Positions 3,425-10,084 of a stretch of DNA of 64,000 bases are shown piece by piece. This DNA is from Streptomyces sp. NBC_01314. Lineage in GTDB: Bacteria > Actinomycetota > Actinomycetes > Streptomycetales > Streptomycetaceae. Each line of letters starts with the position of its first letter. The first letter of the stretch is position 1. The notes under the pieces are model-generated. The model had not been told where the DNA came from. It worked only from the letters and a program-made list of their open reading frames with translations, and did not search any database. Position numbers and translations under genes: made by a program. The stretch is taken from the NCBI RefSeq assembly GCF_041435215.1, contig NZ_CP108394.1, positions 8,866,001-8,930,000 of the forward strand, given 5' to 3'.

Positions 3425-5233
3425 TCAGCCGAGTGCGGATGTTGCCCCCCTGAACACCAAACCGGCCCCCAGGGCGACGACGAGCAGGGCCGACGCCAGC
3501 GGCACGGTGCTGCGCACCAGCGCGGCCGTCGGCCCACCGAGCCGACCCTCGCCCTTGTCCATCACCCGCGTCACCCAGCCGCCCGCCTTCACCACGGCGT
3601 ACCCGGCCGCCGTCAGCGTGAGCGCCAGCCCGATGCCGTACGCCACCACGAGCAGCAGTCCGAACCACGCCTTGCCCAGCGCCGCCGCCCCGACCAGCAC
3701 GACCACGGCCGACGGGCTCGGCACCATGCCGCCCGCGAAGCCGAGCAGGATCGTGCCGCGCAGGGTGGGCGCGGTGGGGTGGGTGTGGGTGAAGCCCCCG
3801 TGGGTGTGCGTGACACCACCGCCGAAGAGGGAGCGCTTCTGGGCGGGAGCGTGGTCGTGGTCGTGGCTGTGCGGGGCGTCGTGGTCGTGGGAGTGACCGT
3901 CGCTGTGGTCGTGGGTGTGAGCCTTGGCCGGTGCGTGGTCGTGGGTGTGGCTCGCGACCGACGCGTGGGTGTGTGTGTGGGTTTCGCCGTGCGCGTGGGT
4001 GTGCGAAGGGGCGGCCTGGGCGAGTACGAGCTCCCGGCCGGGCTCGGGCGCGTGGTCGTGCGTGTGGGAGTGCCCGTCCCCGTGGCTGTGGTCGTGCTCA
4101 TGTCCGTGGGAGTGCCCGTCCCCATGCTGGTGGTCGTGCTCGTGGTCATGACCGTGCTCGTGCGTGTGCCCGGGCCCCTGGGCCTTCGCGTGAGTGAGCG
4201 TCAGCTTGCGGTTCAGCCACGCGCGCCGGGCGAGCGTCACCCCCGCGCCCATCACGAACAGGCCGCTCGCGATGCCCAGCCAGGTGATCACGGACGGGGC
4301 GGCGGCGGAGCCGGCGAGCACGAGGAGGCCGAGGGCGACGACGCCCAGGGTGTGCGTGACCGTCACGGACGCGGCCATGGGCAGGACGTCACGCATCCGG
4401 GCCCGGTCACGGGCGGCGGCCGTCGCGGCCATCAGGGTCTTGCCGTGCCCCGGGCCGAGCGCGTGCATGGCGCCCAGGAACATGGCGATGCCGAAGGCCA
4501 GGGTGCCGAAGCCGAGCGTGAGGTCCTGGCTGGAGACCAGGTCGTCGAGGGCCCTGGTCCAGCGGTCCGCGCCACGCGGGAGGATCGAGGCGCCGGGCGC
4601 GTCGCTCCGCCGCTCGGCCAGCGCGGGGCCGCCGGGCTTCACCTGGAGGGAGGCCGTCGCGGTGTCCTCCGGCGACTGCAGCAGTTCCTCGGGGTAGTTG
4701 GTGAGCCGCTTCGAGACCGACTCCTCGGGCACGTCCGACCCGGTCAGGGTCATCCGGTCGCCCTGAGCGGTGACCTCGCGCCAGCCCGGTCCGGAGTCGA
4801 CGGCCGCGTGGAAGCGTACGTCGGCGGCGCGGTCCGGCAGCGGAGCCGTCATCCGGCACTCCACGCGGAGCGTCTTCAGCCCCGCCTGGCCCGGCCGTTC
4901 CTCGGCCCGGCTCGACCTGAGCGCCACCTCGACGGCACTCCCGTCGACGGTGACCTCGCTGCCCTCGGCGGCCTTCTCGCACCGCTCCCGGGCCCAGTCG
5001 TCCACGCCCTGCCGCTCGATGGCGGGCGCGGCCTGGGTCGCCGGGATCTCCGCCAGGTCCTCGACATGGCGGATCCTCAGTTGCCCGGGAGCGGCGACCA
5101 GGCCGTCGTACCGGTTGACGGTGAAGTTGCCGAGCGGGTGCGCGCTCGCCGTCCCGGTGGGGACGAGGACGAGTGCGCAGGCGGCCAGGAAGACCGCCGT
5201 GCCGGAGGCGAACGCGCGCCGGGGAGAGGTCAC
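3425..5233 (-). CDS. NicO-family nickel/cobalt-type transporter with exported N-terminal domain
   Basis: Predicted metal transporter of 602 residues. A signal peptide (about 1-32, ending GTASA-HP) and a non-membrane domain of roughly 200 residues (starting HPLGNFTVNRYDGL) precede the NicO/RcnA-like membrane domain. The latter carries the signature HALGPGHGKTLMAA and, near the end, GFAGGMVPSPSAVVVL. Between these halves lies a very His-rich loop (about 350-480) of HTHDH/HSHDHD units, as in metal-binding loops of this family. The chosen GTG start at 5233 overlaps the stop of the TPR gene (GTGA), indicating translational coupling. A longer open frame extends upstream but is a shadow of the TPR gene. 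The metal (Ni, Co or other) is inferred. Confidence 0.88.
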   Translation of the reverse strand: MTSPRRAFASGTAVFLAACALVLVPTGTASAHPLGNFTVNRYDGLVAAPGQLRIRHVEDLAEIPATQAAPAIERQGVDDWARERCEKAAEGSEVTVDGSAVEVALRSSRAEERPGQAGLKTLRVECRMTAPLPDRAADVRFHAAVDSGPGWREVTAQGDRMTLTGSDVPEESVSKRLTNYPEELLQSPEDTATASLQVKPGGPALAERRSDAPGASILPRGADRWTRALDDLVSSQDLTLGFGTLAFGIAMFLGAMHALGPGHGKTLMAATAAARDRARMRDVLPMAASVTVTHTLGVVALGLLVLAGSAAAPSVITWLGIASGLFVMGAGVTLARRAWLNRKLTLTHAKAQGPGHTHEHGHDHEHDHQHGDGHSHGHEHDHSHGDGHSHTHDHAPEPGRELVLAQAAPSHTHAHGETHTHTHASVASHTHDHAPAKAHTHDHSDGHSHDHDAPHSHDHDHAPAQKRSLFGGGVTHTHGGFTHTHPTAPTLRGTILLGFAGGMVPSPSAVVVLVGAAALGKAWFGLLLVVAYGIGLALTLTAAGYAVVKAGGWVTRVMDKGEGRLGGPTAALVRSTVPLASALLVVALGAGLVFRGATSALG

Positions 5234-6723
5234 TTGGCGGTCTCCAGAGCCTTCAGGGTCTTGCGGGCCTGTGCCGCGCCGAGCGGCGAGAAGCCGGCGT
5301 TGAGACCGAGCGCCTCCTTCAGTGAGGCCCTGGCCTTCTTCTGGTCGCCGGCCGCGCTCTCGACCATGCCCCGGTGGTACAGGAACGTCGCGTCCTGGTA
5401 GCCGGTGGCGGTGGCGCGGCGGGCGTACGGCAGGGCCTCGTCGTCGCGGCCGTTGACGTGCAGGGCCCAGGCGAGGGCGTCCGCCGTGTGGACCGTCTCC
5501 CGGCGTTTCCACTCGGCCTCGGCGGCCCGCAGCGCGGCCTTCTTGTCGCCGTGGTCCGCGGCGGCGAGCGCGGTGTCGAGGTCGGCGTTGACGCCGTTGG
5601 ACCGGGCGATGGCCGTGTAGGCGTCCACCAGCGCGTACTGGTCGCCCGCCGCGGTCCTGTCGCCCTTCGCCTCGTACAGCTCGCCGAGCACGACGAGCGG
5701 TCCCGGCAGCGGATAGGTGGACACGACCTGCTCGAGGCCGCGGATCGCCGCCGCGCTGTCGCCGCTCGCGGCCTGGGCGCGGGCGCGGCCCTCCAGCGCG
5801 GGGAGATAGGTGTCGTCGGCGCCGAGTGCGCGCGCGTAATGGTCGAGCGAAGTCTTGTAGTCGCCCTGCCGCCAGGCGAGTTGGCCGAGCTGGGTGGCCA
5901 CGTAGGCGATGTCGCCCCTTGTGGCCGCCGAGCGCAGGGCCTGCTCCAGGACGCGCCGGGCGGTCTTCACGTCGCCGCGCAGCTCGTACACGTAGGCGTA
6001 CCGCGTGAACACGGGGATGCCGGGGCGGCGGGTGTCGGCGAGCTTCACCGCCTTCAACGCGTCGTCGTAGCGGCCGAGTTCGACGAGGGCGTCGACGCGG
6101 CTGCACAACGCCCGTTCGCTGTACGGGTTCTCCTTGAGCGCCCGGTCCGCGAACCGCAGCGCGTCGCCGAACTCGTGGCGGGCGGCGGCGAGCGCGGCGA
6201 GACCCGCGAGCGCCGGGTCGTTCTCCGGCCGCAGCTTCAGCGAACGCCGCAGGGCCTTCTCGGCCTGCGGGTAGCGGGTGGAGTCACCCTTGACGCGGGC
6301 CTGCTCGACGTAGGCGAGGCCGAGCGTGGACCAGGAGCCGAAGTCCTTGGGCTGTTCCTTGAGATGGGCCTGGAGCCGCTCGACCGCCGTGTCGAGGTCG
6401 CCACCGGCCAGCTGGGCCGCCGAGACGCCCGGCAAGGTCGAGACGGCCACCGTCCGGTTGTCGTCGTCCCTGGCCCCCAGCGCCACGGCGAACCCGGTGA
6501 ACGCGACGGCCAGCGCGGCCGCGCACGCGGTGAGCCGCAGCAGGCGTCGCCGGGCGGGCTCGGGCGCGGGCCCGCGGTCGGGTTCGGGAGCGGGCTCCGG
6601 GCCGGGCTCGGCATCGGACGAAGGGCCGGACTCGGCGATGTCGCGCCGCTCGTCCTCGGGAGTCCCCTCGCCGGGGCGCGGACGCCCGTCCTCCGACGCG
6701 TTCTCGTTCGTACGCGGGGACAT
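5230..6723 (-). CDS. Membrane-anchored TPR-repeat protein
   Basis: A 497-residue protein with a Pro/Glu-rich cytoplasmic N-terminus (about 1-58), one membrane segment (about 63-84, LTACAAALAVAFTGFAVAL) and a long outer region built of tetratricopeptide repeats (about 100-490; units such as LAGLAALAAARHEFGDALRFADRAL and later WRQGDYKTSLDHYARAL in part). TPR arrays bind partner proteins; no enzyme motif is visible. It is co-translated with the NicO transporter (GTGA overlap) and lies downstream of the DUF4331 gene behind a strong hairpin. This suggests it scaffolds or assembles the transporter/DUF4331 system outside the membrane, which is inference. Confidence 0.88.
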   Translation of the reverse strand: MSPRTNENASEDGRPRPGEGTPEDERRDIAESGPSSDAEPGPEPAPEPDRGPAPEPARRRLLRLTACAAALAVAFTGFAVALGARDDDNRTVAVSTLPGVSAAQLAGGDLDTAVERLQAHLKEQPKDFGSWSTLGLAYVEQARVKGDSTRYPQAEKALRRSLKLRPENDPALAGLAALAAARHEFGDALRFADRALKENPYSERALCSRVDALVELGRYDDALKAVKLADTRRPGIPVFTRYAYVYELRGDVKTARRVLEQALRSAATRGDIAYVATQLGQLAWRQGDYKTSLDHYARALGADDTYLPALEGRARAQAASGDSAAAIRGLEQVVSTYPLPGPLVVLGELYEAKGDRTAAGDQYALVDAYTAIARSNGVNADLDTALAAADHGDKKAALRAAEAEWKRRETVHTADALAWALHVNGRDDEALPYARRATATGYQDATFLYHRGMVESAAGDQKKARASLKEALGLNAGFSPLGAAQARKTLKALETAK

Positions 6724-8381: not shown

Positions 8382-8419
8382 GCCGTCCGTCCTCTGTCCC
8401 AACTTGCCTGACGAACGCC

Positions 8420-8446
8420 ATTCGGAGCGGTCGGCAGGGTGGATTG
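8420..8446 (-). promoter_or_regulatory. Probable SigK promoter for the DUF4331 gene
   Basis: Read on the minus strand: CAATCC (8446-8441), exactly 16 bases, then CGAAT (8424-8420). The mycobacterial SigK consensus is CCATCC-N16/17-CGAAT, so one -35 base differs. Transcription would start near 8413, giving a leader of about 30 bases before the ATG at 8381. Confidence 0.7.
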
Positions 8447-8570
8447 GTCGAATCCCAAACGTTCTTACGGCGCGTTTGAAAGGTTGTTTCACCGGAGAGC
8501 ACGATTCGTTGATCCGATGTTCGGATCGGTCGACCGGAGACCCGCGTTTTGGGCAGCCTGATCCGTAACC

Positions 8571-8597
8571 CCATCCGGAGGTGGGTTGGTTGCGAAT
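8571..8597 (+). promoter_or_regulatory. Probable autoregulatory SigK promoter of sigK
   Basis: CCATCC (8571-8576), 16 bases, CGAAT (8593-8597): a full match to the CCATCC-N16-CGAAT pattern known for SigK. Transcription should begin around 8603-8606. This rules out the in-frame GTG at 8581 and ATG at 8596 as starts on this transcript and favours the GTG at 8647, which has GGAGG at 8629-8633. Confidence 0.75.
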
Positions 8598-8646: not shown

Positions 8647-9189
8647 GTGGAGGCGGACAAGCTTCTGGTCCGGGTGGCCGGAGGCGACCAACGGGCGTTC
8701 GAGGAGCTGTACGCAGTGGTGTCCGGCCCGGTGTTCGGGCTGGTCCGCCGGGTCGTGCGCGACCCCGCGCAGTCGGAGGAGGTGACTCAGGAGGTGCTGC
8801 TCGAACTCTGGCGTTCCGCGGGCCGGTTCGACCCCGCCCGCGGCAGCGCCCTGTCCTGGATACTCACCCTCGCCCACCGGCGGGCGGTGGACCGGGTGCG
8901 CAGCGCCCGCGCCGCCACCGAGCGCGAGCAGCGCGAGGGACGGCGCAACCACCACCCCGCCTTCGACCAGGTCGCCGAGGAGGTCGAGGCCGGACTCGAA
9001 CGCCAGTGGGTGCGCCACTGCCTGGAGAAGCTCACCACCATCCAGCGCGAGTCCGTCACCCTCGCCTACTACGACGGCTACACCTACCGTGAAGTGGCCG
9101 AACGGCTCTCGCTGCCGCTCGGCACGGTCAAGACCCGTATGCGCGACGGACTCACACGGCTGCGCGAATGCCTGGGAGGAGTCGCATGA
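8647..9189 (+). CDS. sigK: ECF RNA polymerase sigma factor, SigK group
   Basis: Alternative sigma factor of 180 residues that redirects RNA polymerase to a small regulon. Region 2 is visible in LLVRVAGGDQRAFEELY, SEEVTQEVLLELWRSAGRFD and ALSWILTLAHRRAVDRVR. Region 4 is visible in TIQRESVTLAYYDGYTYREV and LPLGTVKTRMRDGLTRLREC. The layout closely matches mycobacterial SigK, and the next gene encodes an RskA-type anti-sigma factor. The GTG at 8647 is chosen because the SigK-like promoter at 8571-8597 overlaps the upstream alternative starts (8581, 8596). It probably activates itself and the divergent DUF4331 gene. Confidence 0.9.
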   Translation: MEADKLLVRVAGGDQRAFEELYAVVSGPVFGLVRRVVRDPAQSEEVTQEVLLELWRSAGRFDPARGSALSWILTLAHRRAVDRVRSARAATEREQREGRRNHHPAFDQVAEEVEAGLERQWVRHCLEKLTTIQRESVTLAYYDGYTYREVAERLSLPLGTVKTRMRDGLTRLRECLGGVA

Positions 9190-9271
9190 GCGCCCTGATC
9201 GGCCTCGTGGAACCTGAGGCCCCGTTCGGCCGCGCGGCCCGTGGGGCGTGTGTACCGAGGGGAGGCGTGGC

Positions 9272-10084
9272 ATGAGCCTGTTCCGCCGAGAGGACCTCCA
9301 CTCGCTCGCCGCTCCCTACGCGCTCGACGCCCTGGAACCCGACGAGCGGCGCCGCTTCGAGAAGCACCTGGAGGGCTGCGACCGCTGTCCCGCCGAGGTG
9401 CGCGCCCTGTCCGAGGACGCGGTCCGCCTGGCCTGGTCGACGGCCGCTCCGGCGCCCGAGGCGATGCGCGACCGCGTCTTCGCCGCCGTACGCAGCACCC
9501 CCCAGGAGAACCGGTCCTGGAGTGCCCAGCCGTCGCGGCAGCAGCATCTGCCGCGGCATGTGTGGGGCACGGAGCCGCCGCCGAAGTCGCGCGCCCGTGC
9601 GCCCCGTCTGCGCTCTCTGCTCGTCCCGCTGGCCACGGTCACGGCCGCCGCCGCACTCGTCGTGGCGTCCCTCTTCGCCGTCCAGGCCGACCGCACCCGC
9701 GACCAACTGGCCGCCGAGCGCGCACGGGCCAGTGAGATCGCCCACGTTCTCGCCGCGCCGGACGCCCGCGCGAGCAGTGACAGGGACACGGAGGGCCAGG
9801 CAATCGGAGTGATCGCTTCCGCCGAGGAGGGGAGCGCGATCGTGACCCTCAGCGGATTCGAGAACCTCCCGAAGAACCGGGTGCACCAGCTCTGGCTCAT
9901 GCGCCCCGACGTGCAGCCACGCTCCCTGGGTCTCTTCGACGGCGACACGCCCTTGGTCACCAGTGGAATGAACACCGACGCGACGTCACTCGCGGTGACC
10001 GTCGAACCCGACGGTGGATCAGCGCAACCCACCAGCCAGCCAGTTGTCCAACTCGCCCTGGAATCGGTTGGATTCGGAGAGTAG
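9272..10084 (+). CDS. rskA: Membrane anti-sigma-K factor, RskA type
   Basis: Negative regulator that holds SigK at the membrane until proteolysis releases it (family knowledge). The 270-residue protein has an N-terminal zinc anti-sigma domain with H-x3-C-x2-C (His32, Cys36, Cys39 in HLEGCDRC). One membrane helix follows (about 115-137, LLVPLATVTAAAALVVASLF). The outer C-terminal RskA domain (about 175-270) has the typical QLWLM segment. The ATG at 9272 has GGGGAGG a few bases upstream. It follows sigK after 82 bases in the same transcript. Confidence 0.92.
   Translation: MSLFRREDLHSLAAPYALDALEPDERRRFEKHLEGCDRCPAEVRALSEDAVRLAWSTAAPAPEAMRDRVFAAVRSTPQENRSWSAQPSRQQHLPRHVWGTEPPPKSRARAPRLRSLLVPLATVTAAAALVVASLFAVQADRTRDQLAAERARASEIAHVLAAPDARASSDRDTEGQAIGVIASAEEGSAIVTLSGFENLPKNRVHQLWLMRPDVQPRSLGLFDGDTPLVTSGMNTDATSLAVTVEPDGGSAQPTSQPVVQLALESVGFGE

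Follow-up and report, generated by a model that had tools for sequence, protein, structure and literature searches.

Two putative divergent SigK-type promoters between sigK and a DUF4331 gene in Streptomyces sp. NBC_01314

The window, i.e. the whole stretch of 64,000 nucleotides that was analysed, contains a gap that direct sequence reading bounds by the ATG of a DUF4331 gene (8381, minus strand) and the GTG of the sigma factor gene sigK (8647, plus strand). The features of the gap and its neighbours are collected in Table 1. The NCBIfam score of the sigma factor exceeds the cut-off of the curated SigK model (226), which makes it a member of that family. Its best solved relative is SigK of M. 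tuberculosis (4NQW, 187.9 bits), with the redox cysteines of which C125 and C175 align; both are kept in 27/27 orthologs. The adjacent gene is of the RskA type (PF10099, 109.8 bits; PF22618, 35.0 bits; PF13490, 28.0 bits). A frame of 29 codons (9186-9275) lies between sigK and rskA, with an ATGA overlap at either end; the relatives L046 and L047 show a direct overlap of sigK with rskA. M. tuberculosis SigK is classed as ECF18 in PMC7509140, and its RskA is tied to group AS19-1 of ECF19 in PMC7406223. The S. coelicolor gene called sigK (SCO6520) is, according to PMC9205884, a SigB-type factor and not the SigK described here.

Table 1. Features of the sigK/DUF4331 locus, and the related site elsewhere in the same genome.
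Feature	Position	Strand	Remark
NicO-like membrane protein with a His-rich stretch (presumed DUF4331 operon, gene 3)	3425-5233	-	PF03824, 46.2 bits (3425-4930 tested)
TPR protein (presumed DUF4331 operon, gene 2)	5230-6723	-	TPR Pfam matches
DUF4331 protein, 506 aa	6861-8381	-	PF14224, 540.6 bits, full-length
Conserved DUF4331 leader CGTCAGGCAAGTTGG...GGACGGACGGC with ribosome site	8382-8413	-	Small changes across 23 printed loci
Putative SigK-type promoter, DUF4331 side, CAATCC-N16-CGAAT	8446-8420	-	Direct reading
Two-block element ACCCGCGTTTTSGGC-N4-TGATCCGTA	8540-8567	+	May be a second sigK promoter, independent of SigK, or an activator site
Putative SigK-type promoter, sigK side, CCATCC-N16-CGAAT	8571-8597	+	Direct reading
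sigK, ECF sigma factor, GTG start, 180 aa	8647-9189	+	NF007228, 301.7 bits
rskA, anti-sigma factor (RskA_N, zf-HC2, RskA_C), 270 aa	9272-10084	+	Pfam
SigK-type site before anti-sigma-like gene	C1:1857337 (own genome); gene L037:4038-4828		Site ends 104 bp before gene

The DUF4331 protein is probably anchored in the membrane and facing out, because it has an N-terminal hydrophobic stretch and, in the structural model, a C-terminal helix (474-502, where confidence is low). No NCBIfam family matches it at E <= 0.001. The model (pLDDT 72, pTM 0.74) gave no match at E <= 0.001 in a fold search, so that no function was assigned from the structure, and a search for a solved relative found none. There are at least 7995 relatives at E <= 1e-10; the term DUF4331 returned no paper in an open literature search. 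By this protein the closest named relatives are Streptomyces stelliscabiei (96%), S. sp. MNU76 and S. caniscabiei (both 95%). DUF4331, TPR and NicO-like matches occur together in 43 of the 60 DUF4331 loci that were retrieved from the class, which are a subset of those listed in the class survey; in 11 of these 43 the TPR and NicO genes are on the opposite strand.

Each strand of the gap carries a sequence of the form CMATCC...CGAAT, which is the promoter code of mycobacterial SigK. On the sigK side CCATCC (8571-8576) is followed after 16 bases by CGAAT (8593-8597, plus strand), with a predicted transcription start at about 8604 and a leader of about 43 nt. On the DUF4331 side CAATCC (8446-8441) and CGAAT (8424-8420, minus strand) are also 16 bases apart, the extended form being CAATCC-N12-GCTC-CGAAT; the predicted start is at about 8413 and the leader about 32 nt long. 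The column table covers 23 of the 27 orthologous gaps defined below, four loci with an irregularly cut leader being omitted by name. A preliminary description of this DNA had placed both sites at these positions and in these orientations, and they are indeed correctly oriented CMATCC-N16/17-CGAAT sequences before their presumed targets. It had called the two 16-base spacers identical: they are equal in length and differ in sequence. Its proposal that the mycobacterial code is kept agrees with the match of the sites and with the assignment of the sigma factor to SigK by NF007228, and from these two matches we infer that SigK recognises the sites.

The promoter had also been said to settle the sigK start as GTG 8647. 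The promoter alone is insufficient for this, but the relatives support the codon: in 21 named Streptomyces loci it is GTG in 17 and TTG in three, and the match of one locus begins at residue 3. With GTG or TTG in 20/21 loci, GTG 8647 is therefore well supported as the start. The upstream in-frame GTG 8581 is unlikely because it falls within the promoter spacer.

Sixty-one relatives were searched, 46 of which have SigK at E <= 1e-40. SigK is divergent from DUF4331 in 15/15 of the best genomes (at least 82% identity, own genome included). These 15 loci, the window among them, and 12 SigK-DUF4331 loci found in other genomes by the class survey provide 27 orthologous gaps. In 27/27 a site can be recognised on the DUF4331 side, 19 times in strict form and eight times as CAA(T/A)CC-N17-CGTAT (L008, L015, L016, L018, L106, L107, L112 and L119). 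The sigK-side site is strict in 13, one mismatch off in two and degenerate in 12; all eight N17-CGTAT loci are among the degenerate ones. When the letters of the motif were permuted (about 2000 draws over the 27 gaps), a mean of 0.0 loci matched on the sigK strand (maximum 0) and of 0.0045 on the DUF4331 strand (maximum 3). In the gap alignments a large part of the spacer varies while the hexamers hold. The 21 named loci, which may overlap the 27-gap set, have the DUF4331-side site in 21/21 (19 strict and two CGTAT) and a strict sigK-side site in 18/21. One further locus outside the 27 (L021, SigK 72% identical) has a single strict site, on the DUF4331 side.

This comparison of the gap in other Streptomyces had been proposed as a check by the preliminary description, and the sites prove conserved. 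DUF4331, named there as a direct target, is the best conserved candidate. Autoregulation of sigK, also proposed there, is consistent with the site present in the window and appears lineage-dependent. Since the counts are 27/27 on one side and 13/27 strict on the other, DUF4331 would be the constant target and autoregulation the variable part, which suggests that the most constant job of SigK is to switch on the DUF4331 protein.

Members of the CGTAT lineage group together on the SigK tree, where several forks have weak support: two changes are needed, and 0/500 shuffles are as low. An altered SigK code in this lineage was considered and rejected. Comparison of CGTAT and other SigKs flagged 13 positions, none of them a fixed difference; the nearest to fixed is residue 179 at the C-terminus (A or T in 8/8 CGTAT, V in 16/19 others), and residues 59, 64 and 174, near helices, are variable inside both sets. 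The stretches AHRRAVDRVRS and LPLGTVKTRMRDGL, which we take to read the -10 and the -35 respectively, are identical across all 27 rows. In addition, the site before an anti-sigma gene (see below) is still N16, with CGAAT or CGAAC, in four genomes of the lineage. The absence of a fixed SigK change and the N16 spacing of that site make a promoter variant more likely than a changed SigK code. The N17-CGTAT form could also be read by a different sigma factor.

A further conserved feature of the gap, absent from the preliminary account, is the 28-bp element, with the consensus ACCCGCGTTTT(C/G)GGC-N4-TGATCCGTA, separated by 3 nt from the sigK-side -35 downstream of it. It has 0-3 mismatches to the consensus in 27/27 gaps, against at least 8 in shuffled gaps. 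Its core (at most one mismatch) has a single match in each of 14 of the 61 relatives, always at the sigK gap by coordinates; none was found in the other 47, of which G022, itself of the sigK/DUF4331 kind, has a weaker copy (L019). In the own genome there is one exact copy; a second place, at one mismatch, falls within a gene that by eye is transporter-like, and two mismatches give four more. In L014, where no SigK site remains on the sigK side, 34 nt separate the element from the start codon, suggesting that it is a promoter in its own right.

It is conceivable, then, that sigK is driven by this element and that the CCATCC-N16-CGAAT before it is minor or vestigial, SigK control being confined to DUF4331. 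The presence of the element in every one of the 27 gaps, while the sigK-side site is strict in fewer than half, would fit this reading, as would L014 and M. tuberculosis, where sigKp, just before sigK, is described as not SigK-regulated (PMC7509140). But it seems unlikely, because the window, like the 13 gaps and 18 named loci counted above, has an intact site on the sigK side, and because the element is itself less constant among the 21 named loci: 13 have 0-2 mismatches and eight have 4-11, by substitutions in L224 and L231, apparently by one-base indels in L216, L226, L227 and L229, and in L214 and L215 perhaps since the stretch was cut too short to reach the element.

The class sample comprised 296 genomes, 65 with DUF4331 and 168 with SigK. 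Full-length DUF4331 genes have a strict N16 site in the 500 bp upstream in 11/15 sigK-adjacent and 4/39 non-adjacent cases, and the distant ones in 0/6; permuted motifs gave means of 0.002, 0.0025 and 0.001 (maxima 3, 1 and 1) respectively. The other four sigK-adjacent genes (L106, L107, L112 and L119) have the CGTAT form. Outside the genus of the window DUF4331 sites occur in five families: f22 (L083), f19 (L093, L096), f17 (L085), f15 (L092) and f30 (L094). Because 35 of the 39 non-adjacent full-length loci are without a strict site, control of DUF4331 by SigK would be recurrent and not universal. The four non-adjacent sites (L085, L092, L094 and L103) are all in SigK-bearing genomes, and 0/11 strict sites were found within 1.2 kb upstream of the eleven fetched full-length DUF4331 genes of genomes without a SigK match (L066, L067, L068, L071, L077, L084, L086, L087, L100, L101 and L102); this contrast with the SigK-positive remainder (4/28) is weak by itself. 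L103 keeps the gene order of the window, i.e. kinase, NicO, TPR, DUF4331 and CoA-transferase-like (first and last named by eye), and the DUF4331 site, with no sigK match between the genes and SigK elsewhere in the genome: it is a natural experiment for the presumed SigK/DUF4331 link.

SigK adjoins DUF4331 in four families: f1 (window), f3 (L201), f19 (L093, L096) and f22 (L083). L083, outside the genus, has one site before sigK and one before DUF4331, and L201 has a strict site before sigK only. A small gene stands between site and DUF4331 in L093 and L096; in L093 it is secreted-looking. A second site in L093 precedes a divergent lipoprotein gene, fasciclin-like by eye. L096 also has a divergent fasciclin-like lipoprotein together with a downstream DUF4331, the strict site being on the DUF4331 side only.

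A genome-wide scan for CMATCC-N16-17-CGAAT, another proposed check, returned five strict sites in the 11.35 Mb of the own genome (two contigs, both strands), two of them in the sigK/DUF4331 gap. The pattern read backwards gave none in the same 11.35 Mb; with the spacer loosened to N15-18 there are 12 sites. Of the remaining three strict sites, two were rejected as promoters: one (L039/L003) sits inside a coding frame, and that before an ArsR-like gene, named by eye (L001), is unconserved, the single hit among 20 fetched loci of the gene family (250 bp upstream searched) being its own. The third is kept before an anti-sigma gene. Thus the two sites of the gap, which the preliminary description took to define the regulon, are both present and are joined by a third conserved one.

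The gene after this third site likely encodes an anti-sigma factor: the protein has an H-x3-C-x2-C motif and scores below the curated cut-offs for zf-HC2 (21.2 bits, cut-off 22.2) and NF052375 (44.9 bits, cut-off 100). A search of 61 Streptomyces genomes for this gene gave 20 matches at E <= 1e-40, among which the G024 copy has one internal stop. The site is found in 17/17 orthologs of at least 51% identity (16 strict and one CGAAC) and in 0/3 at 40-44%. An ECF gene of the same locus (L037, 2746-3291; own copy scanned) is of SigL type (NF007227, 240.9 bits, cut-off 202), with SigL 6dv9 as best solved relative (98.9 bits, next best 53.0). The order SigL-type sigma gene, gene of about 170 codons, anti-sigma gene recurs in 10/10 re-fetched site-bearing loci and in 0/3 loci without site. 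This arrangement resembles a SigL-RslA type pair, from which it differs in that the anti-sigma gene carries the SigK-type site and, between this site and the gene, a second promoter-like pair, TGAGTG-N16-CGTACC, similar letters being seen in the printed relatives. Anti-sigma gene and site are present in 14/15 genomes with the DUF4331-type SigK (not G017); among the other 22 Streptomyces relatives the site occurs only in G001 (79% complete, no SigK found). Because the genomes are related the co-occurrence of site and SigK is suggestive only. The conservation of the site in the close orthologs suggests a SigK-driven brake on the SigL-type factor. In M. tuberculosis sigC is reported as a SigK target (PMC4821874); SigK control of a SigL-type brake was looked for and not seen in the accessible part of that source.

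The extended form CMATCC-N12-GCTCCGAAT occurs in 33/46 SigK-positive relatives, being absent from 13, and in 1/15 SigK-negative ones (Fisher p = 1e-5, in a test that ignores shared ancestry); the one SigK-negative genome with the site is again the incomplete G001. The reversed extended pattern is found in 0/61 relatives. Nineteen stretches, mostly around extended sites, were read, and sites stand before sigK genes and before genes whose products are a fasciclin protein (PF02469), a flavin amine oxidase (PF01593), a photolyase (PF03441) or a molybdopterin-oxidoreductase (PF00174). The regulon of SigK-bearing relatives would thus extend beyond what the preliminary description had in view. Some sites also precede genes without evident relation (L194, L198, L202 and L203). 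In L060 (1501-2555) a CAATCC-N16-CGAAG lies about 80 bp before the gene of a secreted-looking 324-aa protein without NCBIfam match, a possible further target. The sister SigKs (14 rows, L022-L035) form a single clade in the SigK tree. Four sister Streptomyces loci were read: in two (L043, L044) the position of DUF4331 is occupied by a divergent fasciclin lipoprotein that has a site of its own, and the other two (L042, L045) have a siderophore-interacting protein upstream.

The near-identical sites at sister SigK loci raise the question of whether another sigma factor of similar code, i.e. a sister SigK or another ECF, and not the adjacent SigK, reads the sites of the window. Some genomes do have a second, more distant SigK (G014, G024 and G032), and in these cross-reading is likely for that reason. 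For the window we hold this to be quite improbable, as one SigK is seen in the own genome and as extended sites track the presence of SigK. That the sites are chance matches retained by slow drift of a short gap hardly deserves credence, even with 11 specified bases only and with two of the five own-genome sites looking accidental or unconserved, being already contradicted by the conservation pattern: permuted-motif controls near zero, hexamers that stay beside varying spacers, and recurrence of the site in other families.

Very probably, therefore, as judged from sequence comparison, the gap holds two divergent SigK-dependent promoters, one for the DUF4331-TPR-NicO operon and one for a sigK-rskA loop. 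RskA would release SigK upon a signal, possibly thiol-redox in nature because both SigK cysteines are kept. SigK-RNA polymerase would then read CAATCC-N16-CGAAT leftward into the DUF4331-TPR-NicO operon, the constant output, and CCATCC-N16-CGAAT rightward into sigK-rskA, closing a positive loop in some lineages. The 28-bp element may act as a SigK-independent basal promoter that primes this loop, and SigK may also drive the anti-sigma gene beside the SigL-type sigma gene. A fuller version, possible rather than probable, is a two-armed switch: SigK would activate the DUF4331-TPR-NicO operon and simultaneously repress a second envelope or redox response via the SigL-type anti-sigma gene, and the timing of the loop would depend on a basal SigK level set by the element.

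What we describe is a variant of the SigK-RskA system, whose sigma factor, anti-sigma factor and site code are familiar from mycobacteria. As in M. tuberculosis (4NQW), a SigK with both redox cysteines and an adjacent RskA-type gene would have an exported product as target. MPT70 and MPT83 are fasciclin-type proteins. Among the targets of M. tuberculosis SigK are mpt70, mpt83 and the Rv0449c promoter; here the output would be DUF4331-TPR-NicO instead of fasciclin proteins, the leftward neighbours of the system in the window being DUF4331, TPR and NicO, with no fasciclin gene beside it. Moreover sigK here has a SigK-type site immediately in front of it; M. tuberculosis, by contrast, autoregulates via the Rv0449c promoter and its sigKp is not SigK-regulated, as PMC7509140 has it; the same source describes SigK sites as highly conserved in Actinobacteria, with orthologs reading the mpt70 promoter. 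The same code is used at SigK loci linked to fasciclin genes, in Streptomyces and the order to which it belongs (L043, L044, L199 and L208), with sites before sigK and/or the fasciclin gene, and L043 has an RskA-type partner (PF10099) as in the window. Their presumed target, unlike that of the window, is a fasciclin protein (PF02469 in L043, L044 and L197), no DUF4331 being recognisable by eye among their genes, and the Streptomyces SigKs concerned form a clade separate from the window SigK.

If SigK reads the third site, the anti-sigma gene would be a concrete instance in which one ECF sigma factor acts as a brake on a second. The DUF4331 protein would be a candidate functional analogue of the MPT70 and MPT83 antigens, and the link to SigK would give an experimental handle on the DUF4331 family.
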